In this document: in pieces, positions 8,862-64,000 of the stretch
Position numbering within the stretch: position 1 is the first letter of the stretch
Layout: each line of letters begins with the position of its first letter
Assembly: GCA_007922225.1 (NCBI GenBank)
Contig: ML679969.1
Coordinates: 21,390,810-21,454,809 of the forward strand
Source of the DNA: Emydura subglobosa
Lineage: Eukaryota > Chordata > Testudines > Chelidae
DNA: 64,000 bases
Reading direction: 5' to 3'
Position numbers and translations under genes: made by a program
The notes under the pieces: model-generated
What the model was told of the DNA's origin: nothing
The model's input: only the letters and a program-made list of their open reading frames with translations
The model's database searches: none

Positions 8862-8934
8862 CTGCACAGGGCACAGGAGGGAAGACCATTAATATCTACA
8901 AGAGTGAAATCTCAACTTATTATTAATTATTCCT

Positions 8935-32113: not shown

Positions 32114-32172
32114 CCACTAGTTCCAGGTCTCTGGGCCTGCGAGAAACGCCAGTCCGTATTAGGCTGAGCTTG
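32114..32172 (-). CDS. PCDHG (constant exon 1): Protocadherin gamma constant exon 1
   Basis: A 59-base exon: acceptor cccttgcag, then QAQPNTDWRFSQAQRPGTSG, then donor GG|gtgagt at 32113. It differs from the mammalian exon by about one residue (QAP to QAQ). The entry phase is 0, matching every intact variable exon in the window; it leaves in phase 2, matched by the C that starts CON2. It begins the shared cytoplasmic domain that all gamma isoforms carry, used for kinase and adhesion-complex signalling. It was too short to appear as an ORF and was found by reverse-complement reading. Confidence 0.97.
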
Positions 32173-34040: not shown

Positions 34041-34389
34041 ACCAACAAGCAATACTGCCTATAACAGTGCAATGTGTCACTTAAAAAGCTTCCATTATGT
34101 AAACAAGGAATGATCTAAGGAGAACACTGCAGTTCCCTAGGCCAGTCACTCTCAGTCTAGGGCTTTGGTTCTGAAATGTTAGATGCTATTCACAGCCAGG
34201 CATCCTTCCTTCACTGTGAAGAACAAGGACCCTTCCCCTCCCTCTTGCTGTACAGGTGAAAGTAATGCTCTTTCCCCAGGAGGCCACTAAGTGCATTGAA
34301 AGGACTGAAAGAGAAGAGTGGTGAATCTGGATATTTATGGACAGTTACACTGAGCAGAAAGGACAGCGGGACACACACGGGCAGCTTAC

Positions 34390-36825
34390 CCCATCACAAG
34401 GACTCACTAATGCGCTGGCCACCTGATCAAAGGCAGCCATGCTCTCTCCAGTAGTAGAATGACTGAAGGGTTTTAGGAAGAGGAAATCCCCTTGGTCAGA
34501 CATTGGAGAGAAACAAGATTTATAGTGCTGCGCCTGGGACACCAGGCCAGCTCCGCCTCCATCCAGATACTTGATGAAGCCTTCCGGATTCAATTGCCCG
34601 GGGAAGTTCGATGTGGATTTCCGGCCTGGCCTCCTACAACAACGTGAGAGGGACCAGCCCACAGCTCCAGGGCCAGATTTGAGGCACCTGGCGCCCAGGA
34701 CTGCCAGCATCACGCATGACACCAGGGAAATGGCTACCAGGGAGATGATGAGGTAGAGAGTCACACTGGATGCCCTGTAAGGCGATCTGGGAAGGTCCAA
34801 GGCCTTGGCGAAGTCTTGTGCAGTCCTCTCCTCAGGGGAGATGACTAGCGCCACCGAGGCTGACAGGGGTGGGGTCCCATTGTCCCGCACCTGGACCACC
34901 AGCCTGTGGGGCGCCTCTGACTCCCTGAGCGCCTCGGTTATTCGGATCTCCCCCGAGTGGCGCTCCACCCGGAACGGACACGGCTCGCTGCTCTCCTGGA
35001 GCCGGTAGGACAGCCAGGCATTGTGGCCGCTGTCGGCATCCACGGCCACAATCTTGGTCACCAGGTAGCCAGGCTGGGCCGTCGAGGGGACAGTTTGCTG
35101 GAAGGGGGAGCCCTGGGGGACGAGCGGGTACACGATGGTGGGGGCGTTGTCGTTCTGATCCAGGACGAACACGTGCACAGTGGTGGTGCTGCTCAGGGGA
35201 GGGGCCCCAGCATCCTTCACCATCACCGGCACCTGGAACACTTTCTCCTGCTCGTAGTCCAGGGCCCGCCAGGTGGAGATGGTGCCGTTCTGCGGGTCTA
35301 TATGGAAATAGGCTGAGAGAGGTAAAGCCTGCGCTCCGCTGTCCACGATGGAATAGGAAAGCTTGGAGTTGCCGCCCACATCGGGGTCAGAGGCGGATAC
35401 AGAGAGCACCGAGGCCCCGGGCAGGGTGTTCTCCTGAATGTGGGCGGTGTAGGAGGAGCTGGAGAACCGGGGCACGTTATCGTTCACATCGGAGATTTGG
35501 AGGGAGATGGTTTTCAGTGTGGACCTCCGAGGGGAGCCGGAGTCCGTGGCCGTGATAGTGATGTTGTACCCTGCAGCCTTTTCTCGATCGAGAGGGCCAG
35601 CGGTGACCAGGGAGTAGTGCCCTTGGAAGGAGCTCACCAGTGTAAAGGGGAGATCGTTCCTGATCTGCAGATGGACTTGTCCATTTTCCCCGGAGTCACT
35701 GTCCTTGGCGCCGATTAGCGCGATCACAGTTCCCGGGGGCGCGTCTTCCTGCACGGGACTGGACAGGGAGGTCAGCACAATGTCCGGGCTGTTATCGTTC
35801 ACATCCACCAGCTCCACCCGCAGGCTGCAGTGTCCCTCCATTGCAGGGGAGCCCTTGTCTCTGGCTCGGACTGCGAGCTCGTAAGCGCTGGAGTCCTCAT
35901 AATCCAGCAGGGCTTTGGTTCTGATCTCCCCTGTCCGAGGGTCCAGGCTAAAGAGGCGGAGGAGTTTATCAGGTGCATTATTGCTAGTTTTGAAAGAATA
36001 TTCAACCTCCCCATTCGGGCCTTCGTCCAAGTCAGTGACGTTTAGCTGCGTGACCAGAGTCCCTGCCCGGACATTTTCTTCTAGAAAAACTGTGGAAATG
36101 GGCGGATCACACACAGGGGGGTTGTCGTTGGCATCTAGGACGTGAACTGTGATCCTGGCAGTGCCTGATCTAACCGGATTCCCACCGTCAAGAGCTGTCA
36201 GGGTCAAATGATGGGCAGCCACGTTTTCTCTGTCCAGGGCTTTTTCCAGCACGATTTCGGGCATTTTAACGCCATCTCCCCTTACATGGATGCTCAGGGC
36301 AAAATGGTCACTGGCACTGAGTTCATAGGTGGAGATGGAATTGGCGCCCATGTCTGGGTCTTCCGCTACCTCGAGGGGCAAGCGAGTCCCTGGGTTCGCT
36401 ACTTCGGTGATCTCTAAAGAAACTTCCTTCTTCGGGAACCGCGGCGCATTATCGTTGACATCCAGGATTTCCACCTCCACCCGGTGCAGCTGCAGCGGGC
36501 TCTCCAGCACCAGCTGGAGCTGCAGGGAGCACGTGGAGCTCAGACCGCACAGCTCTTCCCGGTCTAGTTTCTCGTTCATAAGCAGGGCTCCGTCGACCAG
36601 ATTCACCTGGAAGTATTGGCGGCCGCCCTCGCTGACCAGCCGGAGGCTGCGGGCCGAGAGGCTCCGCACATCCACGCCCAGATCCTTGGCAAGGTTCCCC
36701 ACAAAGGAGCCTGGCTCGCGGTCCTCGGGCACCGAGTAGCGTGTCTGGGCGGGAGCCGGGTCCGGCAGAAAGAGGAGCGCGCCGAGGAGCAGCAGCTGCC
36801 ATCGCAAACTCTGTCTCCCGGCCAT
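34390..36825 (-). CDS. Extra C-type protocadherin gamma variable exon 2 (nearest to CON1)
   Basis: An intact exon of 812 codons (806 if the upstream donor is used). The signal peptide (1-26, LLLLGALLFLP) precedes TRYSVPEDREPG. EC linkers are DVNDN at 122-126, DANDN 231-235, DVNDN 341-345, DVNDN 446-450 and DQNDN 556-560. The membrane helix is at about 688-711. The tail has a basic cysteine patch (CCRRPGRK), then KSCFSPMSDQGDFLFLKPF at 769-787. Two phase-0 donors lie 18 bases apart: TTA then gtgagt (after 34408) and GGG then gtaagc (after 34390). Either joins CON1 in frame, differing by VSPCDG. It sits 2.2 kb upstream of CON1, closer than any mammalian gamma variable exon would predict from C5 order, and has no mammalian counterpart that I recognise. 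Confidence 0.9.
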
Positions 36826-37470
36826 GCCGAGCTCCGCGGTGTGTGACTGCAGCCACCCGGCGCCGCCTCCCCCTCCTGCCCGGACCGCTGCCGCCCGCGA
36901 ATTCGCGCCGCCGGTTCAACGCCCCCAAAGTCCAGTCCTCAGGCGCTCCGAGTGGGTGCCCGAGAGGGTTAGCGGCTGCCGGGGGGGCTGAGGGCTGCAG
37001 CCGGAGCTGGGGGGGGGGCACTGCCAGTGGATCTCAAACGCTCAGTTCAGCGGCTGGCTGGCGAAGAGCCACGCAGAAAGTCGGCGGGCGGTGGGTGCTG
37101 ACAAGTGACAATCCCTCCTCCCGACAGCGGTGCCCCTGCCCCAGACTCACCCAGCCTGCGCCCCACGCACGCTGGCAGGGAGTCACCGGCAAAGGATCCC
37201 AAACAGCAGGTGCTGAGCACCGAGATCGGGGAGAGCGGCTGGCAAGGGCGAGCTGAGGCTTGACACACAAGCCGGGCGGGGAGCGGGGAAGGGAGGGGAG
37301 GGGGGCAGACGCGGTACAGAGAGCGGCCCTGTCCTCTCCCAGGCCCGGCGATTTAGTGCTGGCCTGGCAGCGCGCTGGTGCCTTGCAGACACACTGGCCC
37401 AGCCAGACACGCTGCAGGTCACAGCGGGAGCGGGCTGGGGACGCAGCCTTGGCACAGTCAGGGAGCTCAC
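36826..37470 (-). promoter_or_regulatory. Compact GC-rich spacer and probable promoter of extra C-type exon 2
   Basis: Only 645 bases separate the donor of the upstream variable exon from the ATG of the next. The spacer is GC- and CpG-rich and contains no inverted CCAAT pair, unlike the other C-type promoters. A CGCT core occurs in gcgctccgag near 36943, but I cannot support a full CSE. Confidence 0.4.
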
Positions 37471-39912
37471 CTCAGTGACGCGGCTGGGAGCAGCCGGGCT
37501 GCTGCCCAAGGGGTTCCCGAGGCTTACGGAGGGTTTCATGAACGTGAACTCGCTGATGTCCGAGACGGGAGAAAAGCAGGATCTGTACCCCCGGGCAGGG
37601 GGGGCTGTGGCGGTCACTTGTACATCGATCATGCCGTTCCCCAGGCTGGGCTGGTACTGTGCTTGTCCGAACAAGGGGTGTGGGGGGACCTGGAGAGTGT
37701 CCGCGTTCACACGGCAGTCAGCCGCAGTACGTGCATCACCCCTGACACACCGGGCACCCAGGCCCGCCAAGCCAGCCAGTGACATGGCTGAGAGGATCGC
37801 TAGTGAAACGATTAAATACAGTGTTAACCTGGGGACTCGCTCACTTTCCGCCCCGTGAGCCTTTAATCCCCTGAAGGCCTCCGGGGCACTCTCCTCCAGC
37901 AACACCACCAGGGTGACAGAGGTGGACATGGGGGGCTCTCCTGAGTCTTTGATTACCAAGAAGAGTTCCTGCGTGGAAGCATCCTGCTCCTGGAGGACTC
38001 GAGTGGTCCTGATTTCTCCGGAGCGGAGGGCCACTCCGAAGAGACTGGGGTCGGTTGCCTGCATTAAGTGGTAGGAGAGCCACGCGTTTGGCCCGGAGTC
38101 CAGGTCCACCGCTATAATCTTCGTTATTAAGGCGTGGGGGCTGGTAGAGCGAGGAATCCTGAGCTGTACTGTGGAGTCCTTCCCGGCCAAGGGGAACTGG
38201 AGCCCTGGGGCGTTGTCATTCTGGTCTGTGACGAAGAGGTGGACCACGGTCCTGCTGCTGAGAGCTGGAGAGCCGCCATCTGAGACTTCCACCTGGAACT
38301 GGAAATAAGGGGTTTTCTCATAATCGAAAGGCAACTTCGCGGAAATGTGTCCATTTGTTGGGTTTATGGAGATATATGTGGAGGGATCCGCAGCTGGACC
38401 TTTCCCCGGGGTGCTCAGAAGAGAATAGGAAAGGCGCGAGTTCTGGCCCAAATCCGGATCGGTTGCAGACACCGTGACCAGGATTTTCTCCACCTGGTTG
38501 TTCTCTTTCACGATGACTTCATAGAAGGATCTCTGGAACTGCGGCGCGTTGTCATTGATGTCTGCGAGGGTGATGGAGAGAACGGTGTGTCGGGAGAGAG
38601 GCGGGCTTCCCAGGTCAGAGGCGGAGATGGTGACGTTGTACTGGGAGCGGCTCTCGCGGTCCAGCGGTTCACTGGTGAGCAGGGAATACTGCTGCTCAAA
38701 GTCTTTGCGGAGTTTGAAGGGAAGGCTCCTGGGCAGATGGCACTGGACCTTCCCATGCTCCCCGGAGTCTCTGTCTTTTACGTGTAGCACAGCGACTACA
38801 GTCCCGGGAGGGGCATCTTCACTCACGGAGCTGGAGAAGGAGGTGAGGACCACCTCCGGAGGATTATCATTCACATCAGTGATCTCTACAACGACGCTGC
38901 AATGCTCCTCCATCGTGGGGGAGCCCATATCCTTGGCCTCAACTTCAATCTCATAGACAGAAGCTTCTTCAAAATCTATATTCCCTTCAACTCGGATTTC
39001 TCCCGTTTGATCGTCTATTGCAAATATCCTGCGCAAGGCTTCGGAGTTGTGGCTGCTGAGGGAGTAGCGTACGTCTCCGTTAGGCCCTTCGTCCACGTCG
39101 GTGGCATTCAGTTGAATCACCAGCGTCCCTGAGGGCGAGTTTTCCACCAAGCGTGCTTGGTAGGAGGGTTTATCGAACACTGGATGGTTATCGTTGGCGT
39201 CTAGAACCTGGACAGCAATTCGTGTTTTGCTGGACCTGGGGGGAGAGCCACCATCCTCAGCTGTCAGGACCAAATGGTGGACAGCTCTGTGCTCCCGGTC
39301 CAGCGCTCTTTCCAGCACCAGCTCTGGGAATTTGCAGCCGTCTGTACGTGCCTTCACGTTGAGATTGAAATTCTCATTGGCGCTGAGGTGGTAGGTCTGC
39401 AAAGCATTAGAGCCCACGTCCGGGTCCTGCGCCTGATGGATAGGAAAGCGTGCGCCCAGAGAGGCCAGTTCATAGATCTGTAAAGCAATCTCGGTACTCG
39501 GGAATTCAGGAGGGTTATCATTTATATCCAATATTTCCACTTCAATGCGATAGAACTCCACTGGATTTTCAATAGCAAGTTTAAGATGCAAGAAACACCG
39601 GGAGTTCTGCCCGCAGAGTTGCTCTCTGTCAATTCTATCATTGACCACTATAATGCCGGTGTTCACATTCACAGAGAAATACTGGGAATCAGAGTCAGAA
39701 AGAATCTGCAGATTAGCAGCCGCGAGTTTTGCCAGGTCTGTCCCTAGATCCTTAGCAATATTTCCCACAAAGGCACCTCGAGTCAGTTCCTCTGGGATGG
39801 TATAACGGATCTGTGCGGAAGAGCATTGCAAAAACAAACACAGATAAAAGAAAGACAGGCGTCCCAGGCACCAGGCAGACTTTCCTGATCTTAGCATCCT
39901 GCTAAAATCCAC
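37471..39912 (-). CDS. Extra C-type protocadherin gamma variable exon 1 (between C5 and CON1)
   Basis: An intact 814-codon exon. The signal peptide (about 1-33, hydrophobic FFYLCLFLQC) precedes QIRYTIPEE. EC linkers are DINDN at 129-133, DANDN 238-242, DVNDN 346-350, DINDN 451-455 and DQNDN 563-567. LDRE-type motifs and DxDSG/DPDxG calcium motifs are all present. The membrane helix lies at about 696-719. The tail is short and private with YRSCFSPVSDISEFTFMKP at 776-794, a C-type feature. It ends GTCACTGAG then gtgagc (donor at 37470), phase 0; the frame happens to stay open another 288 bases into the intron. Mammals have no variable exon between C5 and CON1, so this is either a retained ancestral C-type isoform or a lineage duplicate. 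No mammalian name fits. Confidence 0.9.
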
Positions 39913-40160: not shown

Positions 40161-40936
40161 CACTAACCTCCTTCCCAGGACAGCAACACAAGCACCAATC
40201 CATGTGCGGAAGTTGCTACTGTGTAACAAAGGTCCGTGGAACCTGCAGATTTTAACCTAGAGACACCAGGCAAACAGCAGACAATGAGAAACAAAGCCAA
40301 CTCTTTGTGAATTAAGCAGGAGTGTGAGAATTAACGCTTGTAGACGTGTGACCTGGATTACCTATTTGCAAAATAGAAGCACTTCTTGAAAACACACACT
40401 GATATTTTACATGAACTGAAACTCTTTAAATAAGGTTCAGAAAATGTGCAGCCGGTTTCATTTGGAACTGAAAGTTACTTAAATGAGAACAAATAATAAA
40501 TGTCTGTCCCTCTCCTTTCCCCTCCCTTCCCCCATTAGGGCGTTCAGATTAATTTAATGTAATTAATTGCTTTCACACTTCCTGTCATAACCGTGTTATA
40601 AACTTTTCATTGTTTAAGACACAATCCAGTGAAGTAAATCCCTGCAAGGAAAGGAACTAGGATTTTCTGATTCACAAATTAATGAACAGCTCATTGTGTG
40701 AGAACTAGTGTGTCTGGAGTATCTGCTTTACATACAAATATTTCGAGCGTTATTTTACATAAACCAAACCAAAGAAACCTTTGGGTGCCCAAGCGCACTT
40801 CATGATGGTGAGACATTTTTCACAGTTCATACCTAGATACAAATCCCATGGGCTGCTCTGTCTTTGATCACATATCATGTACGCTTCAAGACACCAAGTC
40901 ATTTGTGAGGAATGAAGAGCAAAAGCGCTATCTCAC

Positions 40937-43384
40937 CTGACCGGATTCATTCAGTGTATTTGTCCCAGACAAGAAAGTATCAGTTTCCATCGCTAGGGCA
41001 CTGGGTTGGGGACAACTCATAGGTCTCATAAAGGTGAAGTCACTTCTGTCCGACCCTGGAGAAAAGCAGGTCCGATAGCACTGGCTCTGAGAGTCTGTGG
41101 GCTTGAGTGTCACCTCCATATATTTCAACGTGCCGTCCGTGTTCAACTGAAGCTTAGGGCTGGAGTGTTTGTAAAAGTCTTTAGAGGGCGATTCGCTCAG
41201 GCAGCAACATGATGAATCGCTGTCTCTTTTCCTAAGGCACTTTGCAGATAATACGATGAAAGTAACTAGAGACACCATGCAAATTGCCACCAGCGCAATA
41301 ATTAGATAGAGAGTCAGGTCGGATTTATCTTTGGGGTTTGTAAGGAAATCGCGAGACTTGGAGTTTTCCTCCGACGCTTTGTCTTCTAAGTAAACCAGAA
41401 TGGTGACTGTGGAGGACAAAACTGGGTCCCCATTGTCCTTGATTAGTACGACGATTTTCTGCGCGGCGAGGTCTGTGTCTTGGAAGGCACGGGCGGTCCG
41501 GATTTCTCCCGTGTAAGGAGCTACCCGGAACAAGGAAGGATCTGTAGACTGTGGCAGCAGCGAATAGGAGAGCCAGGCGTTATGGCCAGAATCTGCATCC
41601 ACTGCTGTGACTTTGGTGACCATGTAGCCAGCGGGAGCCGACTGAGGTATCCTTTGGGGCGCTGCGCCCTCTCTGCCAGTTACCGGGTGCAAAATGGCCG
41701 GGGGGTTGTCGTTCTGATCCACAATAAAGACATAGACAGTAACATTAGAGCTGAGAGGGGGAGACCCAGAGTCCTGCACAGCCACGTGGATTTGCAGCAC
41801 CTGCAGCAGCTCGAAGTCGAAAGTGCGCTGCGCGTAAACATTGCCATTGTCCGGGTTCATATGAACAAAGGAAGAGGCTGGCGCATCCTGGATCTCACTT
41901 CCCGCTATAGAGTAAGTGAGGCGGGAATTTTCTCCCTGGTCGGGATCGGAGGCAGACACGGTGCACAGCAAGGAGCCCGGCGGGTTGTTCTCCTTCAGGA
42001 AGGCGTTGTAGAAAGTCTGAGAAAAGCGAGGTGGATTGTCATTGACGTCCGAAATGTTCAGCAATATCGTGGTCTCCGTGGTGAGGGAGGGAGACCCTGC
42101 GTCTCTGGCAGTCAGCTCAATCAGGTATTGCGAGACCCTTTCTCTATCCAGCGTCTCGCGGGTGATCAGTGCATAGTGGTTTTCAAAGGATTTAATTTTG
42201 AACGGCAGGTTCGGGGATATTCCTAAACTCACTTCCCCATTGACACCCGAGTCTCGGTCTCGCACATTGAAAAGCCCCACCACGGTCTCCAGTGGGGTGT
42301 TTTCTGGTACTGGATTCACCAAGGAGGTCAGCAGGACCTCTGGGGAATTGTCGTTGAGATCTTCTACTTCCACCTGGATAACGCAGTGTCCTTCCATTTC
42401 CGGCACGCCCTTGTCTCTGGCTCTCACGTGGATTTCATAGAAACCTGATTCTTCGAAATCCACAGCTCCCTGAACGCGGATTGCGCCAGTGGGAGGATCC
42501 AAAACAAACAACTTCCGGACGGAGTCAGAAGTGTGAACGCCAAAGGAGTATTGTATTTCTCCACTGGGGCCCTCGTCAGGGTCAGTAGCGTTGAGCTGAA
42601 TAAGCAGAGTATCCGCAGGGGTGTTTTCCATCACGCTGACCTTGTAGACAGCGTGGTCGAACACAGGTGCATTGTCATTGATGTCCAGAACAGCCACAGT
42701 TATCTGCGCAGTTCCGGTCCTGGCAGGATTTCCCCCGTCGATAGCGGTCAGTACCAGCTGGTGTTCCCGTTGCTCCTCTCGGTCCAGAGCTTGCTCTAGC
42801 ACCAGCTCCGGGAAGAGTTTGCCGTCCTTAAGAGTCTTTACGTTCAGTGAGAAGTGCGGGCTGGGGCTGAGTCGGTAGGAGCTGACAGTGTTGGTCCCTA
42901 CATCCGGGTCCTGGGCACTCTCCAGAGGGAAGCGCGCAGCCGCGGTGGCGGACTCGGCTATCCTCAGCAGGCGATGGGCGGTGGGAAAGCTGGGCGAATT
43001 GTCATTCAGGTCCAGAATCTCAACCTCCAGGCGGAAGAGCTCCAGGGGGTTTTCTGTAACGACCTGCACCGGCAGCACACACCCCACGCTGGCTCCGCAC
43101 AGCCTCTCTCTGTCTATCTTTTCATTCACCAGCAGAGCACCGTTGGCCAGGCTCACCGCGAAGTACTGCCTGCTCTCCTCCGAGCCCAAGCGCAGCCTGC
43201 GACCCGAAAGATCCGCCACGTTTAAGCCTAGGTCTTGCGCCACATTCCCCACCTCGGTTCCCAGCTCCGACTCCTCCACCACTGAATAACGAATCTGCCC
43301 AGAGACCCAGCCCCAGCCGCACAGTGAAAACAAACTCAGTACTTGCCATTTCCAAGCGGGCTGCCCGGGGCTTCTGGGCTCCAT
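40937..43384 (-). CDS. PCDHGC5: Protocadherin gamma-C5 variable exon
   Basis: An 816-codon exon. I chose the ATG at 43384 (MEPRSPGQPAWKWQV) because it places a normal signal peptide before QIRYSVVEES and matches the mammalian C5 layout; an in-frame ATG 34 codons upstream (43486) would add a non-hydrophobic leader. Six cadherin repeats follow, with DLNDN, DINDN, DLNDN, DVNDN and DQNDN linkers. The membrane helix lies at about 690-715. The private tail has a cysteine cluster, LKYMEVTLKPTDSQSQCYRT and CFSPGSDRSDFTFMRP, all close to mammalian C5 as remembered. The exon ends CAG then gtgaga (donor at 40936), phase 0. The product should be a combinatorial homophilic adhesion receptor on neurons, with a CFSPxSDxxxFxF block resembling a WAVE-complex-binding WIRS segment. 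Confidence 0.9.
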
Positions 43385-43647
43385 TTCCGAGCTATCCTCT
43401 CCTAGACAGTCTTTGTCCTGTCCCAGCACACAGGAGGCACCGGGCTCTGGATACGAGATTCTAAAATCCCCGATATTCCCTTCCACGGCTCATTGAACGG
43501 CTCTCGGGTTTGCCTGGCTGCAGCAGCGATTGTTAGTCACTGAGTGGAGGGGGTGGGGTGGGGGAGGGGAACTGAATCATAGCCTCAGCGCCAGAGGAAA
43601 AGGAGGGGGGTAGAGAGAGAGGAAGAGCAGATCCCCACAGCCTAGAT

Positions 43648-43713: not shown

Positions 43714-44558
43714 GCTGCAGAAACGCGCGCCACAAGCCCGCGTCAGAAGGACCAACTCCCCCAGAATTACATTTCACAAGCTTTAGTCAGTGGTTCTGGC
43801 AGCTAAATTTAGCAGCTCAGATTCTTGTTCTCAAGGAAACAGCACGTCGTGGAAGCATAGAAGGCACAAATCCTCATTATTTTGCTTTAGCAACCACAGT
43901 CATGACTTCAGATGTCACCCATCTCATCTGAACAAAGGACAAATCCTGGGCTGTGATGAATGCAGAACTCTGGTCGCTGGAGAGTGTTTTCAATCGCTAG
44001 GAAAATATATTTATGAAAGCGCGATGACCCCTCCACATCAAATGTTTCATGCATTTGGCGAAATAGCCCCCAATATCACTTTGAAACCTTATGGATAACC
44101 AGATAGATCGGAGCACTTTCTAAACACCTAGCCACTGCCACCTTTCAACACAAGATTTAGAAATCCGTCAGGGTCTCCCAACACTACCACGATCATTCCC
44201 CCTCACCCCCCAGAACAGCAGTCTGTTTACATACACCATACAGGTTTTGAGGCCTTTCAGTGTATTTTAAAGGCACAAGGCAGGTTTGCAGAGACTCATA
44301 ATGCCACTGTGTACTTTTCTAAGGCTGCTGTACAAGGGCAATTGTACAATCATTAATGCTCTGCAAGTTGACAGAAATATCTTGCCTTCTTCACCAGGGA
44401 CTCCGGTATTAAATCTAATCCCTCACTCAAAACCAAAGAGTAAACAGACGTTTTCAAATCGCAAGTCATCTTCAATAAAAGCAATTCACCAACATGCTAA
44501 GGACATCACAAAAAGACATTAACTCACACCCTATCTATTGTATGTTACTGTCTCTCAC

Positions 44559-46866
44559 TTCTCCCCTCGTAAGATCGCTGAGGTTATTGCCGGCCAGAAG
44601 AGTGTCTGTGCTGTTGATGTCCGGTTGATTAAAGGGTGTTGCAAACAGGAAATTGCTTCCCTCTGACAATGGAGCCTGACGAGACCTTTGGAGAGAACAA
44701 CGAGAAAGAAAATATCCCCCAAAAGCAGTGGGAAACTCCAGTTTCTCGTCCAGGCTCTGAAGATCTCTATCAGTGTCTCCTCACCTGCAGGGTATTTCTT
44801 CCCTGTAGATAAGCGGTCTAAGTTGCAACCGAGTCTCTGGCTCTTGCGTTTCGAAGGCACTTCACGGCTAAAAATACGCAAGCCACAGCAGAAAGGACTG
44901 AGATTGCTGCAGAAAGGACTGAGATTGCTGCAAGGGCAATGATGAGCCATTGTCAGGTGGGAAAGGCCATCCTGTTCCAGGTTAGACCTCCTGAAGTCTC
45001 ATGAGCTCCGGTCAGGGTCCTGCTCTGTGTTCATGATCACAGCGATCGTGGTAGACACGGGCGGGTCCCCACCGGCCTGGATCACAAGGACAATCTTCTA
45101 TGGGGGAGGTTGGGAGTTTTGTACAAGGGGAGCTCGGGTAGTTCTGCTCTCTCTGCTGTATGTGGAGACTTTGAATTGAGGCTTGTGTCTGTGGCTAGCT
45201 GCAGTTTGTAGGAGAGTCCTATCTTCCGCCCGGAGTCTGCGGCCACAGCTGGCCCTTTGGTCACGTAGTGCCCCGCCCGTGAAGAGAAAGGGAAGGGCTG
45301 CTGTGCCAGGAGCCCCTTCCCAGCCACAGGATGGATAATCAGAGGCGCTTTATTATTCCGGTCGAGGATGAAGATGGAGACAGTCCCACAGGTGCTGAGA
45401 GAAGGTGACCCGCTCTCTCTGGCTTGTATCTGTACAGCTGACTGTTGGATTTGTCCATAATCGAATGAGCTGCAGCAGGTGGTGGCGATCTCGGAGCTGA
45501 CATAGGCGTAGGAGGAAACGGGCACCCCTGCACGGGACTATCCACAGTGCGGCAAGACAGCAGGGAGTTCTGGCCCAGATCGGGATCAAAGGCGGATACG
45601 GAGCAGATGGAAACCCCCAAAACATTGTTCTCGGTCACTAGGGCTTGCTGGGCAGGCTGGGAAAAGCGGGGTGGGTTATCGGTCAGATCCGATATGTGCA
45701 AAAAAAAGGCTGTTCTGGCTGGAAAGTGGTGGTGATCCTGAATTTGTAGCTGTGATCACAACCTGATACTCCCAGACCTTGTCCCGATCCAGGGGCCGCT
45801 GGTGATCAAGGGGTAGCGGTCCTTGAAGGACGTTACTACCTAGAAGGGTGTGTCTGCGGGGACCAGAAGCTGAACCTCTCCGTTTTCCCCGGAGTCACCA
45901 TCACTAACGCTGAGAAGAGCCGCCAGAGTGTCCGCTCGCCCCGCGGCTGAGAGCGAAGTGACCCTAAAGCTAGGGGCGTCGTCCTTGACATCAGTTACCT
46001 CCACTAAGACGCTGCAGTGGGCGACCATGGAAGGAGATCCTTGGTTCCTGGGCCCTCACATCGATTTCCTAAACTGCTATATTCATAATCCACATTTCCT
46101 AGGACTCTATATCTCCAGTATCCTGGATGCTAAACAACCCCCGGATTTTCTGGCGAGTGTGGCTGCTGAAGGAACCGGTGACATCACTATTTATCCCCTC
46201 ATCCTTGTCGGTGGCATTTAATTTAATCACCATAGTTCCCTCCACAGCATTTTCTAGCAGGTTTACTTTGTATGCAGGCTGATCAAAGGCGGGCGGGTTG
46301 TCCGTGGCATCAAGTCTGAGACTGCACTCCGAGCAGCTCCGGATTTAGCAGGAAGCCCGCCAACCAGGGCTGTCAGCACCAGGCGGGGAAGCTCCCGCTG
46401 CTCCCTGCCTAGAGCTTTCTCTAACGCCAGTTCGGGGTGTTTGCTGCTGTCTTTATGATTCTTCACACTCCAGGGGAAAGAGCCAGGGGGGCTCAGCCGG
46501 CAGCTGCTGGCGGAGTTGCCTCCAATGTCCAAGGCTTCGGCAGTCTCCGCGCGGATGACGCCAGTGAGGAACGCCATCGAGAAACTCCGCTTCCACGCGG
46601 TGCGAGGCAGCTACTTGGCCAGCAGGAGCTCCAGTTACAGCAGACTCCAGTTACAGCAGTTATAGCCGCTCTCGGTCTATCCGCGCCCTCACCACCAAGA
46701 CGCTACCAAGCCTGGCAGGATCTGCAGCTGTCGGGTGGGCAGCATCCAGACCCAATCCTTATTCACATCCCTGGCCAAAGCCCCTGGGATGGAGTAACGG
46801 ATCTGTGCCACCTGCCCACCGCCCTGCAGCAGGACGGAAACCAGAAGCAAAGCGCCCATTTGCCAT
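44559..46866 (-). pseudogene. Second decayed C-type protocadherin gamma variable exon
   Basis: A relict signal peptide (ATG 46859, MGALLLVSVLLQ) leads to QIRYSIP, the start of EC1. EC1 then has a large deletion and an in-frame stop at 46689-46691. Recognisable EC2 (PELALEKALGRE, 46.45 kb), EC3/4 (about 46.0 kb), EC5 (DPDLGQNSLL, 45.55 kb) and EC6 pieces follow with stops and frame changes. A linker reads DRNNKAP instead of DxNDNxP. The membrane segment near 44.9 kb carries an in-frame 24-base tandem duplication (AAISVLS twice). The tail ends PLSEGSNFLFATPF and LSDLTRGE, with donor GAA then gtgaga at 44558 preserved. It does not match C3, C4 or C5 tails well, so it is either an extra C-type gene or a very diverged duplicate. 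Confidence 0.8.
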
Positions 46867-48420
46867 TGCAGGAATATTTAGAAAGATTGGACATACACAA
46901 GTCCATGGGGCCAGATGCAATGCACCCGAGGGTGCTGAGGGAGTTGACTGATGTGATTTCAGAGCCATTGGCTATTATCTTTGAAACATCGTGGCAATTG
47001 GGGGAGGTCTCTGATCATTGGAAAAAAGCAAATATAGTGCCCATCTTCAAGAAAGGGACGAAAGAGGATCCAGGGAACTACAGACCGGTCAGCCTCACCT
47101 CAATCCCTGGAAAAATCATGGAGCAGGTCCTCAAGGAATCCATTTTTAAGGCACTTGGAAGAGAGAAAGGTGATCAGGAACAGTCAACAGGGATTCACCA
47201 AGGGAAAGTCATGCCTGACCAACCTGATTGCTTTCTATGAAGAGCTGACTGGCTCTGTGGATGTGGGGAAAGCGGTGGACGTGATATACCTTGACTTTAG
47301 CAAAGCTTTTGATATGGTCTCTCACAGTATTCTTATCAGCAAGTTAAAGAAGTACAGGTTGAATGAACGGACTATAAAATGGATAGAGAACTGGCTAGAG
47401 CATAGGGCTCAATGAGCAGTGATCAATGGCTCCATGTCTAGCTGGCAGCTGGTCACAAGCGGAGTGCCCCAGGAGTTGGTGCTGGGGCTGGTTTTGTTCA
47501 ACATCTTCATTAATGATCTGGAGGATGGGGTAGATTGCACCCGCAGCAAGTTTGCAGATGACACTAAGCTGGAGGGAGTGGTAGATACCCTGGAAGGTAG
47601 GGGAAGGATACAGAAGGACCTAAACAAACTGGAGGATTGGGCCAAAAGAAATCTGATGAGGTTCAACGAGGACAAGTGCAGAGTTCTGCACTTTGGACGG
47701 AAGAATCCCATACACAGCTCCAGACTGGGGACCTATGAGCTAGGCAGCAGTTCTGCATAAAAGGACCTGGGGGTTACAGTGGATAAGAAGCTGGATATGA
47801 GTCAAAAGTGTGCCCTGGTCGCCGAGAAGGCTAATAGCATATTGGGCTGCATTAATAGGAGCATTGCCAGCAGATCGCGGGAAGTGATTATTCCCCTCTA
47901 TTCGGCATTGGTGAGTCCGCATTTGGAGTATTGTGTCCAGATTTGGGCCCCCCACTACAAAAAGGATGTGGACAAGTTGGAGAGAGTACAGCGGAGGGCA
48001 ACAAAAATGATTAGGGGGCTGGAGCACAGGACTTATGAGGAGAGGCTAAGGGAACTGGGCTTGTATAGTCTGCAGAAGAGAAGAATGAGGGGAGATTTGA
48101 TAGCAGCCTCTAACTACCTGAAAGGGGGTTCCAGAGAGGATGGAGCTAGGCTGTTCTCAGTGGTGGCAGATGACAGAACAAGGAGCAAATTGCAGTGGGG
48201 GAGATCTAGATTAGATATTAGGGAAAAGTTTTTCACTAGGAGGGTGGTGAAGCACTGGAATGGGTTACCTAGGGAGGTGGTGGAATCTCCATCTTTAGAG
48301 GTTTTTAAGATGCAGCTTGACAAAACCCTGGCTGAGATTATTTAGCTGAGGTTAGCCCTGCTTTGAGCAGGCGGTTGGACTAGATGACCTCCTGAGGTCC
48401 CTTCCAACTCTATGATTCTA
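46867..48420 (+). mobile_element. CR1 LINE, 5'-truncated, inserted at the start of a protocadherin exon
   Basis: This is a 1.55 kb plus-strand fragment of CR1 ORF2. It starts inside the coding region (QEYLERLDIHKS), passes the RT blocks VPIFKKGTKEDPGNYRPV, DFSKAFDMVSHSIL (palm A) and KFADDTKL (FADD catalytic motif), and ends with the CR1 3' terminal repeat (CTATGATTCTA). Stops and frameshifts (for example near 47160, 47415 and 47760) show it is inactive. It inserted within a few bases upstream of the relict ATG of the neighbouring pseudogene, in the opposite orientation. It is younger in appearance than the minus-strand CR1 at 61.2 kb and close in sequence to the copy at 14.93 kb. Confidence 0.92.
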
Positions 48421-49291: not shown

Positions 49292-51661
49292 CTCTTTGGT
49301 CAGGCTCCTGTCTGCTGACTGGTAGGTGGGGAGGGGAAACGTCACCGCTGGTGATATGTTCACAGGTTTCAACGACAGTAAACCGTTGCTCCTGGAGGCT
49401 GAAGAAATAAAGGCTCCGTAGTTGTAAGTCTGGGGTATGTGGGCATTTCCCCCCAGCTCGATGAATTTAATAGGATCATCAGCGCCAAGCTGGATGCTGA
49501 GAATTCCACTCGAGTGTGTGACTTCGTCCCGCCTCCTGCTGGACTGTTTGATACATGAGCAGCTCCCTCCCAAGCAGCGATAATCCCACGCCGCATTTTC
49601 TCTGAAGCACCTGGAAAGCAGGACAAGGAAGGTGGCAAAGGCGATGACCCAGATCGCTGCCAAGGACAGAATCAGGTACAGGGTCAAGTGGGACTCGCCC
49701 GCTGGCGGTGTGGAAAATTCTTTAAATTCAGGGAAGGCGTCATTAGAATTGTCTTCTATGGAGACCGTAAGGGTCAGGGAGGTTGAGAGAGAAGGGTCCC
49801 CATTGTCTTTGACAAGGACGATAAGATTTTGGGGCAAAATATCTCCGTGAATTGCGCGAGCGGTTCTCTTCCCCACGGTATAAGGGAATACCGCAAACAG
49901 GCCAGGATCTGTGGCGTTGAGAATTTGATAAGAAAGCCAGGCGTTAGCCGGAATCTGAGTCCACGGCCATCACCTTGGTCACCAGGTGACAGGCGTCGGC
50001 TGAGGGATGGAGGGTTTGCAGAAATACAGAGCCTGGTTTGATCCGCGGGTAAATAACTGCAGGAGCGTTGTAATTGAAGTCCAGAATGAAGAGGTGAACA
50101 GAGAGACGGGTCCCCCTGGAACAGAAGAGTTTGCTTTTGTTCGTGGTCAAAGGAGCGGAGGGCGTGCAAGCTGCCAGTCTGGGAGTTGATGGAAATGTAT
50201 GAGGAGATGGGCATTTCCTGTCGCTGGGTATCCAGCAAGGAGTAGGAAAGGAGGGAGTTCTGGCCTAAGTCTGGGTCAGATGCAGATGGAGAGAATAGCA
50301 GAGCGCCGGGGGGTTGTTCTCCCTCACAGACACCTTGCAGGAAGATTTGGGGAAGGCAGGCGGATCGTCGTTCACGTCGAACAGGTTTAGCGCGATGGCT
50401 CTTTGGGCGGAAAGAGGCGGCGATCCGGAGTCGGCAACAGTGACAGGGTTTACGTAGCCGGGAGATTCCTCCCTGTACAGGGAGCTGCAGTGACCCAGGA
50501 GACCTGGTTTCTGAAGGAGAATCTCAGTCCGAAGGGCAGGTGCTCGGGGATCTAGAGAGTCACTTTTCCATTCGCCCCGAATCCAGATCCCGGACGGTGT
50601 TGAGCGCTACCACGGTCCCCAGCTCCGCGTTCTCTGAGATGGAGCCCAGCACCTAGGTCAGTACGATTTCCGGGGCGTTGTCATTGACATTCACGATGTC
50701 CACCTGAACCTGCAGCTCTTCCATGGCCGGCGCCCGCCCATCTCTATCTAGCTTTGATGCCAACTTCATAATTTCTATTGGTTTCAAAGTCCAGCGGTGT
50801 GACTGGCCCTGTTTCGGGCGCACAGCGAACAGGCCTGAGACACTCTAGGACGCGTGGCTGCTGAGCGAATAGGTGACGTCACCGTTGGAGCCTTTGTCTG
50901 GGTCAGTGCGTTGAGTTGGATTAGGAGGGTGCCAAGCGGCGCGCTCTCCAGCAGGCAGAGGGCCCAAAGAGCGGTGCATTGTCATTGACGTCCAGAGCAG
51001 ACACACTGAGCTGTGCCGCCCCGGATCGTGGCGGGATACCCCCATCCAGGGCTGTTAACACCAAATGGCATTCGGCTTGTTTCTCTCTGTCCAAAGTCCT
51101 TCCCAGCAGCAGCTCTGGAACTAGAATCCCATCGCTGAGCTTCTTCACTTCCAGAGCAAAGGGATCATTGGGTGAAGCTTGTAGCCGATGACAGAATTAC
51201 TGCCGATGTCAGGATCCGGTGCTATCTTCAGCGGGATCCGTTGTCCTGGGACGTTGACACCGATATTCCCAAATCCAGTTCTCTGTTGAGAAAGCTGGTA
51301 GGATCGTCATTCAAGTCTGTGATCTCCACCTCTGCTTGGTACATTTCCAAGGTATCTTCAATCACAAACCCTAACTGCACAATGCAGCTAGACTTGAGCC
51401 CACAAAGCACCTTCCGGGCGTTTATAAGCAGAGTCCCGCTTCCTAGATCCATTCGGAAATGCTGCTGGTTCGCTTCTCCAGAGACCTGCAGCCTGCGAGC
51501 CGACAAGGAATCAATATCCAGCATCAAATCTGTTGCTATATTGCCCACAAAGGCGCCCTGCCGGGATTCCTCGGGGACAGAATAGCGAATCTGTCCAGAA
51601 ATTAAATCCAAATGGCAAGAGATGGCCCTTTCCACTTATTGCCTTGGCTTCTGTAGCCCAT
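49292..51661 (-). pseudogene. Protocadherin gamma-C4-like variable exon, decayed
   Basis: It lies in the C4 position between C3 and C5. The EC1 remnant (DIDSLSARRLQVSGEANQQH) and the tail (SSRRR, then GILSIQLGADDPIKF) resemble mammalian C4 from memory. Lesions are many. The relict ATG at 51661 runs into a stop within the signal peptide, while EC1 continues in another frame. There are frameshifts near 51255 and 51185, a short deletion near 50965, in-frame stops at 50845-50847 (EC3) and 50653-50655 (start of EC4), and further breaks to about 50240. The last 585 bases (49876-49292: end of EC6, membrane helix, tail) remain open, and the donor GAG then gtgaga at 49291 is intact. The number of independent breaks makes assembly error an unlikely explanation. 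C4 identity is probable, not proven. Confidence 0.8.
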
Positions 51662-51929: not shown

Positions 51930-53690
51930 AAGGTTAATTTTTTAAAGCTTTTACATATGTATTATTTCCTGCTTTTTGCCTCCAATACTACAAAATACAG
52001 TATTTCCCACCCTATCCTTTTCAATATTCTTGTGTTCTTGTGTAGAAAACATATGTGCATTAAGATATATGTCTCACAAATTATATATAACACCAGCCAC
52101 AGAATCCTAAACTCTTATCAGTCCAGGGATTTACCACATTGTCTTATTCCTCATGATCAAACACTTACATAGAATAGAACGCTCCTATGTTACGACTGCA
52201 CAACATCAGTTAGTAAGAACAACGGAAATAGACTACAACACTCAAGCTTCCGCCAATTTGTTGCTTACTGAGGTGCAAAATGAATACTATTTCAAATATT
52301 TAAAAAACCTAAAGCAGGTGGAATTAATTCTTGACTTCTCATTCAAACCGGTCTACAGAAAAACCCTATCCAGCTCATTCAAATGCTGAAAACAACTGAA
52401 ATATATAATCCCAGCTATCATATACACAAAGGATAGCCAAAGGCAAATGTTACACCCTTGATCTATTTATGGGGGAAATAAAATTGCATGAAAAAACCGA
52501 GAAAGGCAGTGAAACATTATACCACAACCAGATAGTCACTGCTTTTCTGTCATTACGTGTTAAATACAATCACAGATTATGGTAGTATGAAATAGCTGGT
52601 ATTTAGTGTACTTGAAAGCCCATTCTCAAACCATTATAATATCTTAAAAAGAGAAAAAAAAACTCTAGGAACGCTTATGATATAGCATTAATTTCTTACA
52701 TAACCAGCGACTGCACCAACAGCAAGTTTCTAAGGAACACTACTTGTTTTAAGAGCAATACTTTTTCAGATGAAATCACACACAAAATTAAAATAGCCTG
52801 ATGCTTACATTAACAGGTACAATTAATTCAGAAATAATGAAGATGTAATACCACACCATGCCAATGAAATACTCTAAAGTAAAAGAACCAAGAGCTTCTT
52901 TCTTTGACACCGGGTCACCCCAGTTCTCACTTACCCACTATATTGATTCTGAACCACACTGGGAGGACTCTAATACTGTCCGCAAATCTGCAGAGTGAGG
53001 ATTGCCCTTATTTCCCCCTGACCATAGTGAAAGTTGAGAGAGTTCAGCTCTTTACACAACCATGAGCCCTAAACACTTGGCTAGTGATAGGGAAAACCAT
53101 TCGCCTCCAATACATGGTATTTGATCCCCTCTCAAAGGTGCCGAGTAAACCTCTCGCTTCACAGTCTTATTATGAAGTAAAATAAATACAGCTAATAATA
53201 GATTAGGCGAGGAAAAATTACAGTGGGCCTTAGATTAACTTTAGCAGCCTCTGAGGGTTACTCTTGCGTCTCACAAACCAAGACTTCAACTACTAACTTG
53301 TATAAATAAAGTCCCATTACCGCTCCCACAATGCAGCGATTCCACGGTCTTTTGAGGCAGAAGATTTAATTAAATATACATTGTTCAATGTGATTACTTT
53401 AATGAGATATATCCCCGGATCCCTTTATCCAAACCAAAACCTAAACTAGAGACCATATAAATCTTGCAAATCTACTTCCGGGAGGGCTCAGGACAAACCA
53501 TGACGCTTTTCAAATGCACTTAATTTAAGGAATATAACATGGGAAAACGGTAGGGATCCGTTCTTCCTGCTCACAAAATGCCGATACAACACAGAGGAAC
53601 GCAGTGGGTTCACGGCTACAGGAAAAGCCAAGGTTTGGTGTGTAACTAGTGCGAGCCGAGAGCACATTACCAAATACAGGTGAGAGGACT
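51930..53690. other. Gene-free spacer between C3 and the C4-like pseudogene
   Basis: A/T-rich sequence with no exon, RNA gene or clear repeat that I recognise. Confidence 0.5.
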
Positions 53691-53697
53691 ACATTAC

Positions 53698-56139
53698 CTC
53701 GCCGGGAGCCGGACCCCTGCCCGTTGTGCCGACTATCTGATTATATAAGCCGGGCTCGCAGTTTTTCACAGTGTTCTGCTGGCTCCCGGTGGGACTGGGG
53801 GCGAAGGGCTTTTTGCACAGAAGGTTACTCTGGCGGGAGTCCGTGGTAAGATACACCTGCTGGTAGAAGTTCGGGGGCACAAATCCGCGGCGGACAGCGT
53901 CTATGTGGGTGAAAGGTCCCGGCGTTCTGTAAAGCGAGCTCCTGGAGGAGCTGAACATCTCCTTCGATTGCCTCCATTTGTAAACTTTAAAAATGCCCAC
54001 CCCGATCATGGTGACAAAGAAGGCCACGGAGACCAAGATCACAGCCAGGATCAAATAGAAAGTCAAGTGCTTCTTTTTGTCGTGTGTGGTGGACACCTCG
54101 GTGACGTCCCTCAGGGCCTCCTTAGCAGTCTCCACTACGGATATTGTGACGGTGGCGCTAGAGGACAAGGCGGGCTCCCCGTTGTCTTTGACCAAGATGA
54201 CCAAAGTGTGCTTAGGAGCCTCGTCCTCCAGCAGCTGGCGAGCTGTGCTGATCTCCCCGCTGTGCAGCCCCACTGAGAAGAGGCTGGTGTCGGTGGCCTG
54301 AAGAAGGATGTACGAGAGCCAAGCGTTGTATCCAGAATCGGCGTCCCAGGCCACGAGCTTGGTGACCATGTGCCCGGCGCTGACTGTCGGCGAGATCATC
54401 TCGAGGTGGAAGGAACTGGAGTTTGGAGGCGGGTAGAGAACTCTGGGCGCGTTGTCATTCAGGTCTGTCACAAACACAGTGACCGCGAGGTTGGTGGCGA
54501 GGGCCGGCGTGCCGCCATCGCGGACATGCACTGTCATTCTGAACTCCATCATGTCTTCGTGGTCCAGGGAGAGCAGGACGAAAATGGTGCCGTTCTCCGG
54601 ACTGATAGAGAAATACCTGCCGACTGCACTGCCCGAGGAGCTGTTTTCCAGGATGGAGAAGGAGAGCCGAGAGTTCTGGTTTAGGTCTGGATCCGAGGCA
54701 CTTAAGTTAAATATTGGGGTGCCGGGGAGGTTGTTTTCCGCCACATACACGTCGTAGGAGAGCTGGGGAGATTTGGGGGGGTTGTCGTTGATATCTGCCA
54801 CTTGCACTAGTATCTGGTTTTCCGCCCAGAGCGAGGGCGATCCCGCGTCCCGGGCTGTGATGGTGATGTTATACTCGGACACAAGTTCCCGGTCCAGAGC
54901 TGCTTTGGTTTTCAATGTGTAGTAATTTTTAAGGGAGGAGCTGAGAGTGAAAGGGATGCCAGTGGACATAAAGCAATTTACCAGGCCATTTTCTCCAGAA
55001 TCCAGGTCAGTTACGCTCAGCAAAGCTATCACGGTCCCAGGAGCGGCGTCTTCAGGCACCGGGCTGTATACCGATGTCACGGTGATCTCAGGCGCGTTGT
55101 CATTTACATCAATGATTTCCACCAGTACTTTGCAATGAGCTACTCCAGGATTAGGGCCCTTGTCTTTAGCTTGTATGTAAATCTCATAAAAAACCGTTTC
55201 TTCGTAATCCAGGTGCCCTTTGACCCTCAGCTCTCCAGTAGCAGAGTCCAGTGCAAAGAGCTCTCCCACTTTGGCAGGGGTGTGACTACTGAAGGAGTAA
55301 ACTATATCTCCATTGGGCCCCTCATCCAAATCAAAAGCGCTGGTTTTGACCACCAGAGTGTCTGTCTGGGTGTTCTCCTTTACACTGGCCCGGTAGGTGC
55401 TTTGGTTAAAGACCGGCACATTATCATTAGCGTCCAGAACATCGATCTGGATGTGCACACTGGCAGATCTGGGAGGGCTCCCCCCATCCAGTGCTGTGAG
55501 GACCAGCTGCAGTTCTGGTTGCTCCTCCCTGTCTAACTCCTTTTCCAGCACCAGTTCCGCATATTTGCTGCCATCCCCTCGCGTCTTCACGTTTAACACA
55601 AAATGCTGGTTGCCGCTGAGCTGGTAGGTCTGCAAAGAGTTACTCCCCACATCAGGGTCTTGCGCGCTCTCTAGTGGGAAGCGCGCTCCAGGCGCCACGG
55701 ACTCACTGACTTCCAGCCTCATTCGGCTAGAGGGGAAAGCTGGGTCGTTGTCATTGATGTCCTGGATCTCCACGGCAGCGCTGTATAACTCCAGCGGGTT
55801 CTCTACCACAATCTCAAAGCTCAAGGTGCACTGAGAGAGGGCCCCGCACAGTTCCTCCCGGTCTATCCGCTCGTTCACAAACACCAGCCCGCTCTTCAGA
55901 TCTGCCTCAAAGTACTTCTTGCTGCCTCCAGACACAAGCCGGAGCCTGCGAGCAGACAGCCGCTGGAGCTCCAAGCCCAGATCGGCTACCACGTTCCCCA
56001 CCGAGGAGCCTTTTTGCGTTTCCTCGGGTATAGCATAGCGAATGGCCGCGGAAGCCCACTCCGAAACGCCAGACAAAAACAACAGACTAAGTACTTGCCA
56101 TGCAGTTACCCAGCGGCTCCGTCCAGCAGCGCGTTTCAT
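53698..56139 (-). CDS. PCDHGC3: Protocadherin gamma-C3 variable exon
   Basis: One 2,442-base exon (814 codons) encodes a type I cell-adhesion protein that forms cis and trans homophilic recognition units on neurons. The start at MKRAAGRSRW gives a signal peptide, then mature EC1 beginning near AIRYAIPEE. Six cadherin repeats follow, marked by DINDN, DANDN, DVNDN, DINDN and DLNDN linkers and repeated LDRE and DPD motifs. The membrane helix spans about 694-717. The 97-residue private tail is the C3 signature: YKWRQSKEM, SSLYRTPGP, QVYLTTDSR and a CEPGLYNQI block close to the mammalian C3 tail, with no CFSP motif. The exon ends GAG then gtaatg (donor at 53697), phase 0 into CON1. Orthology is from remembered mammalian C3 motifs and gene order, not an alignment. 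Confidence 0.92.
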
Positions 56140-61196: not shown

Positions 61197-62325
61197 AATA
61201 ATAGAATCATAGAACCATAGGGTTGGAAGGGATGGCAAGGGTAATCTAACTTAACCCCTGCCAAGATGCAGGATTTGTTGTGTCTAAACCATCCAAGACA
61301 GGTGGCTATCCAGCCTCCTCTTGAAAACCTCCAGTGAAGGAGCTTCCATGACCTCCCCAGACAATCTGCTCCATTGTCCTATTGTTCTTACAGTTAGAAT
61401 TTTGTCCTGAAATTTAATCTAAATCTGCTATGCTGTAGTTTGAATGCATTGCCTCTTGTCCTGCCCTCTGTGGCAAGAGAGAACAACTTTTTTCCATCTT
61501 ATGGTTTCAAGTATTTGAAGACTGCTGTTATGTCTCCCATTAATCTCCTCTTTTCCAAATTAAACATACCCAGTTCCTTCAGCCTTTGCTCATATGACTT
61601 GCATTCCATCCCTTTGATCTTCTTTGTTGCTCACCTTTGGATTCTTTCCAGTTTTTCTACATCCTTTCTATACATTGGTAACCAAAATTGGACACAGTAC
61701 CTTAAGATGAGGCCTAACCAGTCCTAAGTGTTGTATTACTATCACCTCCCATGACTTGCATGCTATGATAATGCAACCCAAAATGGTATTTGGATTTTTT
61801 TTTTTTTTTGGCAACAGCATGGCATTGTTGACTCATGTTGAAGTTGTGATCCACCACAACTCCCAGATCTTTCTCAGCAGTGCTGCTGCCAATCCAGTTA
61901 ACCCCCCATTCTGTATTTGTGCATTTGTTTTTTCTTCCATAAGTATAGCACCTTACATTTGTCTTTTTTTTAAATTTCCTTTTGTTGTCTATAGCCCATT
62001 TTTCCAATTTATCAAAATCCCTTTGAATTTTAGCTCTATCCTCAAAAATGTTTGCAACCCTGGCTAGGTTAGTATCATCTGCAAATGTGATCAGTTTGCT
62101 CTCTATTCCTACATCCAGATCATTCATAAAGATGTCAAATAACACTGGACCCAAAATAGATCCCGGTGGAACCTCACTTGAGACCTCCTTCCAATTTGAC
62201 ATCATTTCATTAACACACATTTCTCCATGTTATCAGAATGTCATGTGAGACTGTGTCAAAAGCCTTGCTAAATTCCAGGTATATTATGTTCACTGTATTC
62301 CCTTTTAATATTTTCATCAAAGCCA
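61197..62325 (-). mobile_element. CR1-type LINE, 5'-truncated, old copy
   Basis: Read on the minus strand, this is the reverse-transcriptase half of a CR1 ORF2. It has a palm-A-like stretch (EFSKAFDTVSHDIL) near 62260, the block EVPPGSILGPVLFDIFMNDL near 62160 and the FADDTN catalytic motif near 62085. The open frame breaks at 61714 and the 3' end is the CR1 terminal direct repeat (TCTATGATTCTAT-like) at 61197-61215. It is more diverged than the two plus-strand CR1 copies at 14.9 and 46.9 kb. It carries a poly-T tract (plus strand, 61796-61810) inside the coding region, so it is clearly dead. Confidence 0.85.
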
Positions 62326-62979: not shown

Positions 62980-63571
62980 CAATACTGCATACAAAAATAT
63001 ATGTATAAAGACATTTGAAATAATCTGCCAAGGTAGATTATGGAATTAACTCATCTGGAGATGTTCAAGACTGTCATATGACACACCTAAATAAGGGATG
63101 CTTTAGGGAAAATATCGGCACATTATGCGGAAATGGTCTAACCTACTGTAATTCCCTTGGGACTCAAATGATTTTTTACCACTACAGACTGAAAGTGTCT
63201 GAAGAAGCAGTTGGTCCCATACAACAAATAAACTGTTATATATTCTTCATCGAAAATACTCGAACTCTAAAATATCTATGGAAATGTTTTCCACACAGGG
63301 CACTGAGATCTTCCACCTATTCTGAGAAGGGAAATATTCACGTCTCCAATATCATAACGCAGATGATGCTGACCAGAATGAAACGGAGAAGTTTCACAGG
63401 ATTTTCTCTATTAACTGTTAGAAAACGTGTCTTTGCGGTATAAGTTAGATCTATTTGCAGTCTGCATACTTGTTGCAGAACTACAGGGAAGGACGATCCC
63501 GGAAACCTTAGATTACTGGTTGAAATACCCTCCACAGTTGGCATGACTTGCATTTCAGAACGGTGTCTCAC
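62980..63571. other. Intron/intergenic segment downstream of the A/B-type exon
   Basis: No gene or recognisable repeat is visible. The reading frame of the upstream exon continues past its donor for about 230 bases before a stop at 63338, which is simply intronic read-through. Confidence 0.5.
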
Positions 63572-64000
63572 CTGTGCCTGGCTGTCAGAGCTGAGGTTTC
63601 CCCTGCTAGACTCATTCCCCATGCCAGAATCCTCAGCAGAAAGGAGAATGTCGGTCAAAGTCTTTTGGTCCGGTTTGAGAAAGGTGAACTCCTTCTGGCC
63701 CGAATCGCCAGCCAAGCACACCTCGTAAGAATAGGGCAACTGCAAGGTCCCACTGCTGTAGTTACAGGAGAATTTGGGGCCGAGACTAGAATACAGATCC
63801 GGATTGTAAGATTCAAACACTGGGGGAGTTCTAGGTCTCCGACATTTAAAAATTAAAACCAATATCACTGTAAAAAGGAATAAAAACGAAATCAAAGCTA
63901 GAGCTACCACCAAAATAACAGTAAACCGAGACTGAGATTCCGAGTCACCCGACTGGTCGCGCATTTCCGGAAGAGCCTCTTGGAAGTTCTCGGCAAACAC
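63572..64000 (-). CDS. Protocadherin gamma A/B-type variable exon, 3' part (partial)
   Basis: This is the end of a variable exon whose 5' part lies beyond the window. The 143 visible codons start in the juxtamembrane end of EC6. A single membrane helix follows (about residues 26-53 of the fragment, FTVILVVALAL onward), then a basic stop-transfer stretch (KCRRPR) and a cytoplasmic segment with the PYSYEVCLAGDSGQKEF block typical of gamma A/B tails. The exon closes with CAG followed by gtgaga at 63571, phase 0, matching the phase needed to join CON1. It lacks the C-type CFSPxSD motif and the C3 tail, so an A or B subgroup member is the best call; I cannot name the paralogue. It is the last non-C exon before a 7.4 kb gene-free gap. 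Confidence 0.85.

Follow-up and report, generated by a model that had tools for sequence, protein, structure and literature searches.

In the mouse, neuron survival and postnatal life are reported to depend strictly on just one protocadherin gamma isoform, gamma-C4, and C4 is described there as the sole PCDHG gene under constraint in human (PMC6957209). In human, a neurodevelopmental syndrome results from biallelic PCDHGC4 variants (PMC8553613). Among reptiles, the gamma-c genes c3-c7 of the anole have been described (PMC2764143). It gives direct orthologs in the anole for human C3 and C5, and none in human for anole c4, c6 and c7, so by that analysis none of the five anole gamma-c genes is the C4 ortholog; 14 pseudogenes are reported for the anole cluster as a whole. 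The account of Xenopus gives no one-to-one gamma orthologs with mouse, and 22 Xenopus gamma exons group with mouse C4 and C5 (PMC4978886). Among the matches listed for literature on reptile C4 and protocadherin loss, nothing on point was found beyond these anole and Xenopus papers.

We analysed a window of 64,000 nucleotides from the turtle Emydura subglobosa, which contains the 3' end of the protocadherin gamma cluster on the minus strand; all features given below lie on this strand. In order of transcription these are the end of another variable exon (63338-64000), the intact C3 exon (53689-56139), a dead exon in the C4 position, psi-C4 (49292-51661, from ATG to splice donor), a second dead C-type exon, psi2 (44505-46894), the intact C5 exon (40928-43486), two further intact C-type exons, X1 (37183-39912) and X2 (34345-36825), and gamma constant exons 1 (CON1, 32113-32172), 2 (18162-18248) and 3 (8638-8862). 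The four C-type exons beside psi-C4 have open frames of 816-909 codons (C3, 816; C5, 852). As among the anole gamma-c genes, C3 and C5 are present and C5 is followed by two more genes. Set against the published description (PMC2764143), the arrangement differs in that anole c4 is reported to have no direct human ortholog and the text consulted mentions no C4 relic.

The C3 exon matched 4zi8 (titled Pcdhgc3) with 443 bits in a single stretch, with Pcdh10 summing to 445 over several stretches, and clustered with goat and pigeon C3 with 100/100 support in a tree of domains EC1-6. The C5 exon was named from trees and from its match to 4zpn (504 bits, the best among EC1-3 entries), titled MCG133388 isoform CRA_f, which we take to be gamma-C5. 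Over 816 residues turtle C5 shares 88.8% identity with a protein of Lepidochelys kempii, the next part of which is 90.1% identical to X1 over 477 residues; bird C5 sequences are 70-72% identical to turtle C5. These protein identities by themselves mark the animal as a turtle, though probably one not closely related to sea turtles. X1 is C6-like and also present in birds and sea turtle, X2 is C7-like and also present in birds, and the two are probably anole c6 and c7. Between 34345 and 39912, X1 and X2 show 75-78% identity to exons of birds, which are found there in joined form (C5+X1 or X1+X2). Adjacent variable exons are fused in these combinations in the turtle and bird database proteins P0001, P0122, P0123, P0127 and P0129, and such models are likely to be annotation errors. 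A reverse transcriptase fragment, CR1-like by resemblance, was also observed at 61714-62220 (Pfam RVT_1, 29.4 bits; cut-off 29.6).

Lesions in the C4-position exon

The original prediction for this DNA held that the exon in the C4 position appears to be a pseudogene, with a broken signal peptide, at least two frameshifts (near 51255 and 51185), a small deletion near 50965, and in-frame stops at 50845-50847 and 50653-50655. The boundaries of the exon are exact, with an ATG at 51661-51659 and the donor AAAGAG/GTGAGA immediately after base 49292. In the broken leader (51602-51661) the ATG opens only 19 codons before a TAA at 51604-51602, and this frame does not match that of EC1, which leaves a dead signal peptide. 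We aligned the exon with a codon-level aligner in which steps of 1, 2, 4 or 5 bases were allowed, using first a profile of the window's own C3, C5, X1 and X2 exons that contained no C4 sequence. This placed 11 frameshifts (51251, 51177, 50956, 50909, 50820, 50746, 50574, 50476, 50312, 50106 and 49946) and four stops (50847, 50655, 50554 and, in the poorly aligned leader, 51638). With a profile of three mammalian C4 proteins all 11 frameshifts came back, none displaced by more than 6 bases; this profile also marked 49384 as a possible twelfth and called three stops. Common to both profiles are the frameshifted stretch from 49946 to 51251 and three in-frame TAG codons, in EC3 (50845-50847), near the EC3/EC4 boundary (50653-50655) and in EC4 (50552-50554); several small deletions are also present. 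In control alignments of padded stretches, C3 received one frameshift mark and no stop, and C5 no frameshift and one stop, although both exons are single open frames.

All of the lesions named in advance were recovered, and eight further frameshifts and the stop at 50554 came in addition. The pseudogene state itself is borne out by the lesions in the two alignments together with the dead leader.

Such lesions might instead be assembly or sequencing errors in an intact gene. Homopolymers within 12 bases of the frameshift sites reach at least six bases at one of the 11 (50312, CCCCCC) and five at one other (50106), and this scarcity makes the frameshifts unlike long-read indel errors. Errors would also have to account for 11 frameshifts and three to four stops in a single 2.4-kb exon whose four neighbours are open, and 24 of the 25 best genome matches to C4 have no internal stop. 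Residues conserved across paralogs have decayed as well. Twelve intact sequences, namely marsupial C4 and 11 turtle exons, agree at 105 positions, and psi-C4 is changed at 11 of these (10.5%); when intact sequences were left out one at a time as controls, they were changed at 2-9 of 113-120 (1.8-7.5%, mean 4.1%). This decay is modest, not far above the 7.5% of the worst intact control. Taken together, we regard an error-based explanation as extremely improbable and treat psi-C4 as a genuinely damaged exon.

Orthology to mammalian PCDHGC4 and the open tail

For comparison with known proteins we used a read-through translation of psi-C4, with X at each lesion and the reading frame taken from the C4-free profile. 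Its best PDB match was human gamma-C4 (7jgz, 483 bits over EC1-4). The next entries of the EC1-4 or EC1-3 span were gamma-A1 (302 bits), Pcdh10 (299), gamma-B7 (294), alpha-4 (285) and C5 (280); entries of other spans gave 449 (Pcdh10), 447 (gamma-B4), 370 (gamma-A9), 359 (alpha-7), 358 (gamma-B2 hybrid) and at most 331 bits for the rest, the six-domain entries reaching 449 and 447 bits. psi-C4 grouped with the three mammalian C4 rows with support of 100/100 in the EC1-6 tree (30 rows) and 100/99 in a tree of EC1-3 only (27 rows, omitting psi2 and two bird rows), and the C5 and C3 clades were equally firm. A phylogeny placing the exon outside C4 had been set beforehand as counter-evidence, and both trees placed it inside.

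Residues common to the three mammalian C4 proteins and absent from turtle paralogs were kept at 28 of 113 positions in psi-C4, 17 of 134 in C5, and 3 to 10 (of 103-128) in eight other sequences. Overall, psi-C4 is 56% identical to marsupial C4. The C-terminal part of the exon reads SSGILSIQLGADDPIKF, the marsupial counterpart being SSGILRIQLGSEDPIKF, and the cytoplasmic motif SSGIL.IQLG..DPIKF is common to psi-C4 and C4. The cytoplasmic domain of psi-C4 matched marsupial C4 residues 684-815 with 93 bits, as against 34 bits for C5, the best of ten other turtle exons. On the PDB match and the two trees, which support the C4 identity first proposed for it, the exon is the ortholog of mammalian PCDHGC4. 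It is like the placental and marsupial genes in its position directly after C3, EC1-6 sequence, C4-type cytoplasmic domain and splice phase; it differs from them in being untranslatable, with a dead leader, 11-12 frameshifts and 3-4 stops.

The exon could alternatively be a dead, reptile-specific C-type paralog. The description of the anole cluster is in line with such a paralog, as it pairs anole gamma-c4 with coelacanth gamma-22 and not with a human gene (PMC2764143); the anole and coelacanth c4-like sequences were in neither of our trees. Against it stand the support with mammalian C4 in both trees, the best PDB match and the C4-type cytoplasmic domain of psi-C4, and psi2 next door would fit a paralog of this kind better, with only 4 of 103 C4-private residues. 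We therefore consider a paralog very improbable and retain psi-C4 as the mammalian C4 ortholog.

psi2 carries 15 frameshifts and six stops by alignment to the own-exon profile, and is more decayed than psi-C4, with changes at 26 of 102 shared residues. We rejected it as a second or true C4 on its C4-private residues and because it did not group with C4 in the EC1-6 tree, where it forms a long branch. Possibly it is what remains in this turtle of the anole gene named c4.

The last 218 codons of psi-C4 (49292-49945) form an open tail that covers the end of EC6, the transmembrane segment and a C4-type variable cytoplasmic domain, and has no certain lesion under the own-exon profile. At 49859-49885 in this tail, TVGKRTAR stands in place of the EC6 motif TGEIRTAR of C5, as if two small indels had compensated each other. 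A fold of the last 209 bases as RNA gave no signal (z 0.0).

The tail raises the possibility that only the ectodomain was lost and that a transcript beginning elsewhere, spliced into the tail, continues to yield the C4 cytoplasmic domain. The own-exon profile places no lesion in the last 654 bases and 15 in the preceding 1716 (the chance of a lesion-free tail is 0.008 if lesions are evenly spread, calculated post hoc, and 0.06 for the last 400 bases alone), the splice donor is preserved and, as judged against C5, in phase with CON1, and in mouse retinal cultures the variable cytoplasmic domain of gamma-C4 alone is reported to have rescued survival (PMC11975030, preprint). However, the tail contains no Met, its TGEIR motif in EC6 is scrambled, and the C4 profile puts the frameshift at 49384 inside the domain. 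The cytoplasmic domain of psi-C4 is 40% identical to that of marsupial C4 (38/96), compared with 52-68% for EC1 to EC6, and the marsupial and eutherian domains are 89% identical (85/96); special conservation of the psi-C4 domain, which this comparison was used to look for, was thus rejected. From these features a residual C4 tail product, though possible, appears unlikely, and continued use of the domain through such a transcript most unlikely; we read the whole exon as dead.

Searches for a working C4

The original prediction had named an intact C4 elsewhere in the genome as evidence that would speak against it, and this was looked for in the animal's own assembly (1.93 Gb in 1268 contigs, in which gaps are possible), where the window occupies positions 21390810-21454809 of its contig. 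A full-length match to the DNA of psi-C4 was obtained at the exon's own locus alone; the runner-up among 15 places was 243 bases at 68%. Whole marsupial C4 matched 63 places; the best intact exon was C5 (811 bits, 52% identity), and psi-C4 was recovered only as two weaker pieces. The two intact exons that ranked next after C5 in this search were both rejected as C4. One (L010) paired with an elephant-shark protein with 99/97 support and is delta-like, and the tree placed the other (L011) outside C4; the labels delta, alpha-C1 and alpha-C2 for exons of this genome were assigned by position and resemblance. Neither the DNA search nor the marsupial C4 search, with 49 of 307 candidates scored, found an intact C4 elsewhere in this assembly. 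As with known unitary pseudogenes, a gene present once was inactivated where it stands and the searches brought up no working copy, and on this sequence evidence the exon is very probably a unitary pseudogene of PCDHGC4 in this one turtle assembly.

We also looked for C4 among the predicted proteins of other animals. Among the best 120 of 7314 matches of the read-through in 5.8 billion proteins, identities of 53-58% were reached by mammalian C4 and by the cluster P0012, about 1% distant from the eutherian row in the trees; a goat C3-C4 chimera followed at 48%, and reptile, bird, amphibian and fish matches reached at most 46%. A profile of two C4 proteins and psi-C4 gave no reptile protein named C4 among the best 120 of 7967 matches. 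From the 224 proteins that these searches gave we took 62 (45 sauropsid, 17 others), and C4 or psi-C4 was the best match for none of their 86 ectodomain pieces that passed the length filter. Marsupial C4 residues 684-815, searched against the 5.8 billion proteins, gave five clusters of 426 candidates, with 1 to 59 other members each; by naming entry, four were from tammar wallaby, mink, goat and wild yak, and the fifth was P0012. As a control for this query, the decayed turtle tail shares four exact five-residue words with it and would score E=4e-21 in a database of this size, and turtle C5 0.0065.

Among the predicted proteins listed, the only intact C4 came from placental mammals, marsupials and P0012. 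No sauropsid C4 was found among them; these are gene models, so that a missing model is not a missing gene. Nor was a monotreme C4 listed, which may point to gaps in the collection.

Estimated age and possible consequences of the loss

The age of the loss was approached from three measures. The excess of changed shared residues over the mean control (about 7%) corresponds to about 0.03 substitutions per site, assuming 2.25 replacement sites per codon. The three to four stops correspond to 0.04-0.05 substitutions per site, given that 3.3% of random changes make a stop in the C5 frame. In the tree, the psi-C4 branch was 0.46, as against about 0.13 for turtle C5 and 0.26 for turtle C3, an excess of 0.20-0.33 per residue or 0.09-0.15 substitutions per site. 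These measures agree poorly and the dating is crude; what we consulted of PMC5451010 for a turtle substitution rate gave no usable number. In rough estimates, C4 would have died in the lineage of this turtle 20-105 million years ago, with a counting error on the shared-residue estimate alone of 4 to 46. The turtle-bird split lies some 250 million years back. Together with the rough clock, this suggests that C4 worked in turtles long afterwards, and that any losses in birds or lizards would be separate events.

We propose that in this turtle's lineage selection on C4 ceased and frameshifts and stops built up, probably tens of millions of years ago and well after the turtle lineage parted from that of birds and crocodiles. 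The exon could then give rise to no C4 protein with an ectodomain, splice donor notwithstanding. Judged from the turtle ortholog, C4 predates the mammal-reptile split and is hence no mammalian invention. Other reptiles and birds may likewise have lost C4, and something else may cover its pro-survival role. Whether C4 is an old vertebrate isoform that reptiles dropped more than once, the turtle copy having worked for well over 100 million years after the bird split before it died, is a plausible but tentative reading that stops a little short of probable.

With C4 dead in this turtle, the task in neuronal survival that it has in mouse would be done by other isoforms, or not be needed in this way. 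The original prediction took mouse C4 to be both necessary and sufficient for neuronal survival. This follows PMC6957209; sufficiency is disputed by PMC9793319, in which neuron loss and death still occur in mice that have the three gamma-C isoforms and lack the other 55, and other isoforms are reported to contribute to survival. A preprint reports that C4 acts in survival through its cytoplasmic domain alone in mouse, and its discussion favours alpha-C2 as a partial stand-in (PMC11975030). By sequence, C5 is the nearest intact relative of C4 in the turtle, at 52% identity to marsupial C4. The cytoplasmic domains of C5 and C4 agree at only 16 of 83 residues (19%), so a simple take-over through this domain is not obvious from sequence.

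The state of this locus suggests that an amniote can live without C4. If repeated loss in reptiles is true, amniote nervous systems are able to shift the pro-survival task away from C4. The dead turtle ortholog makes the question of which alternative carriers can take on that task directly testable.
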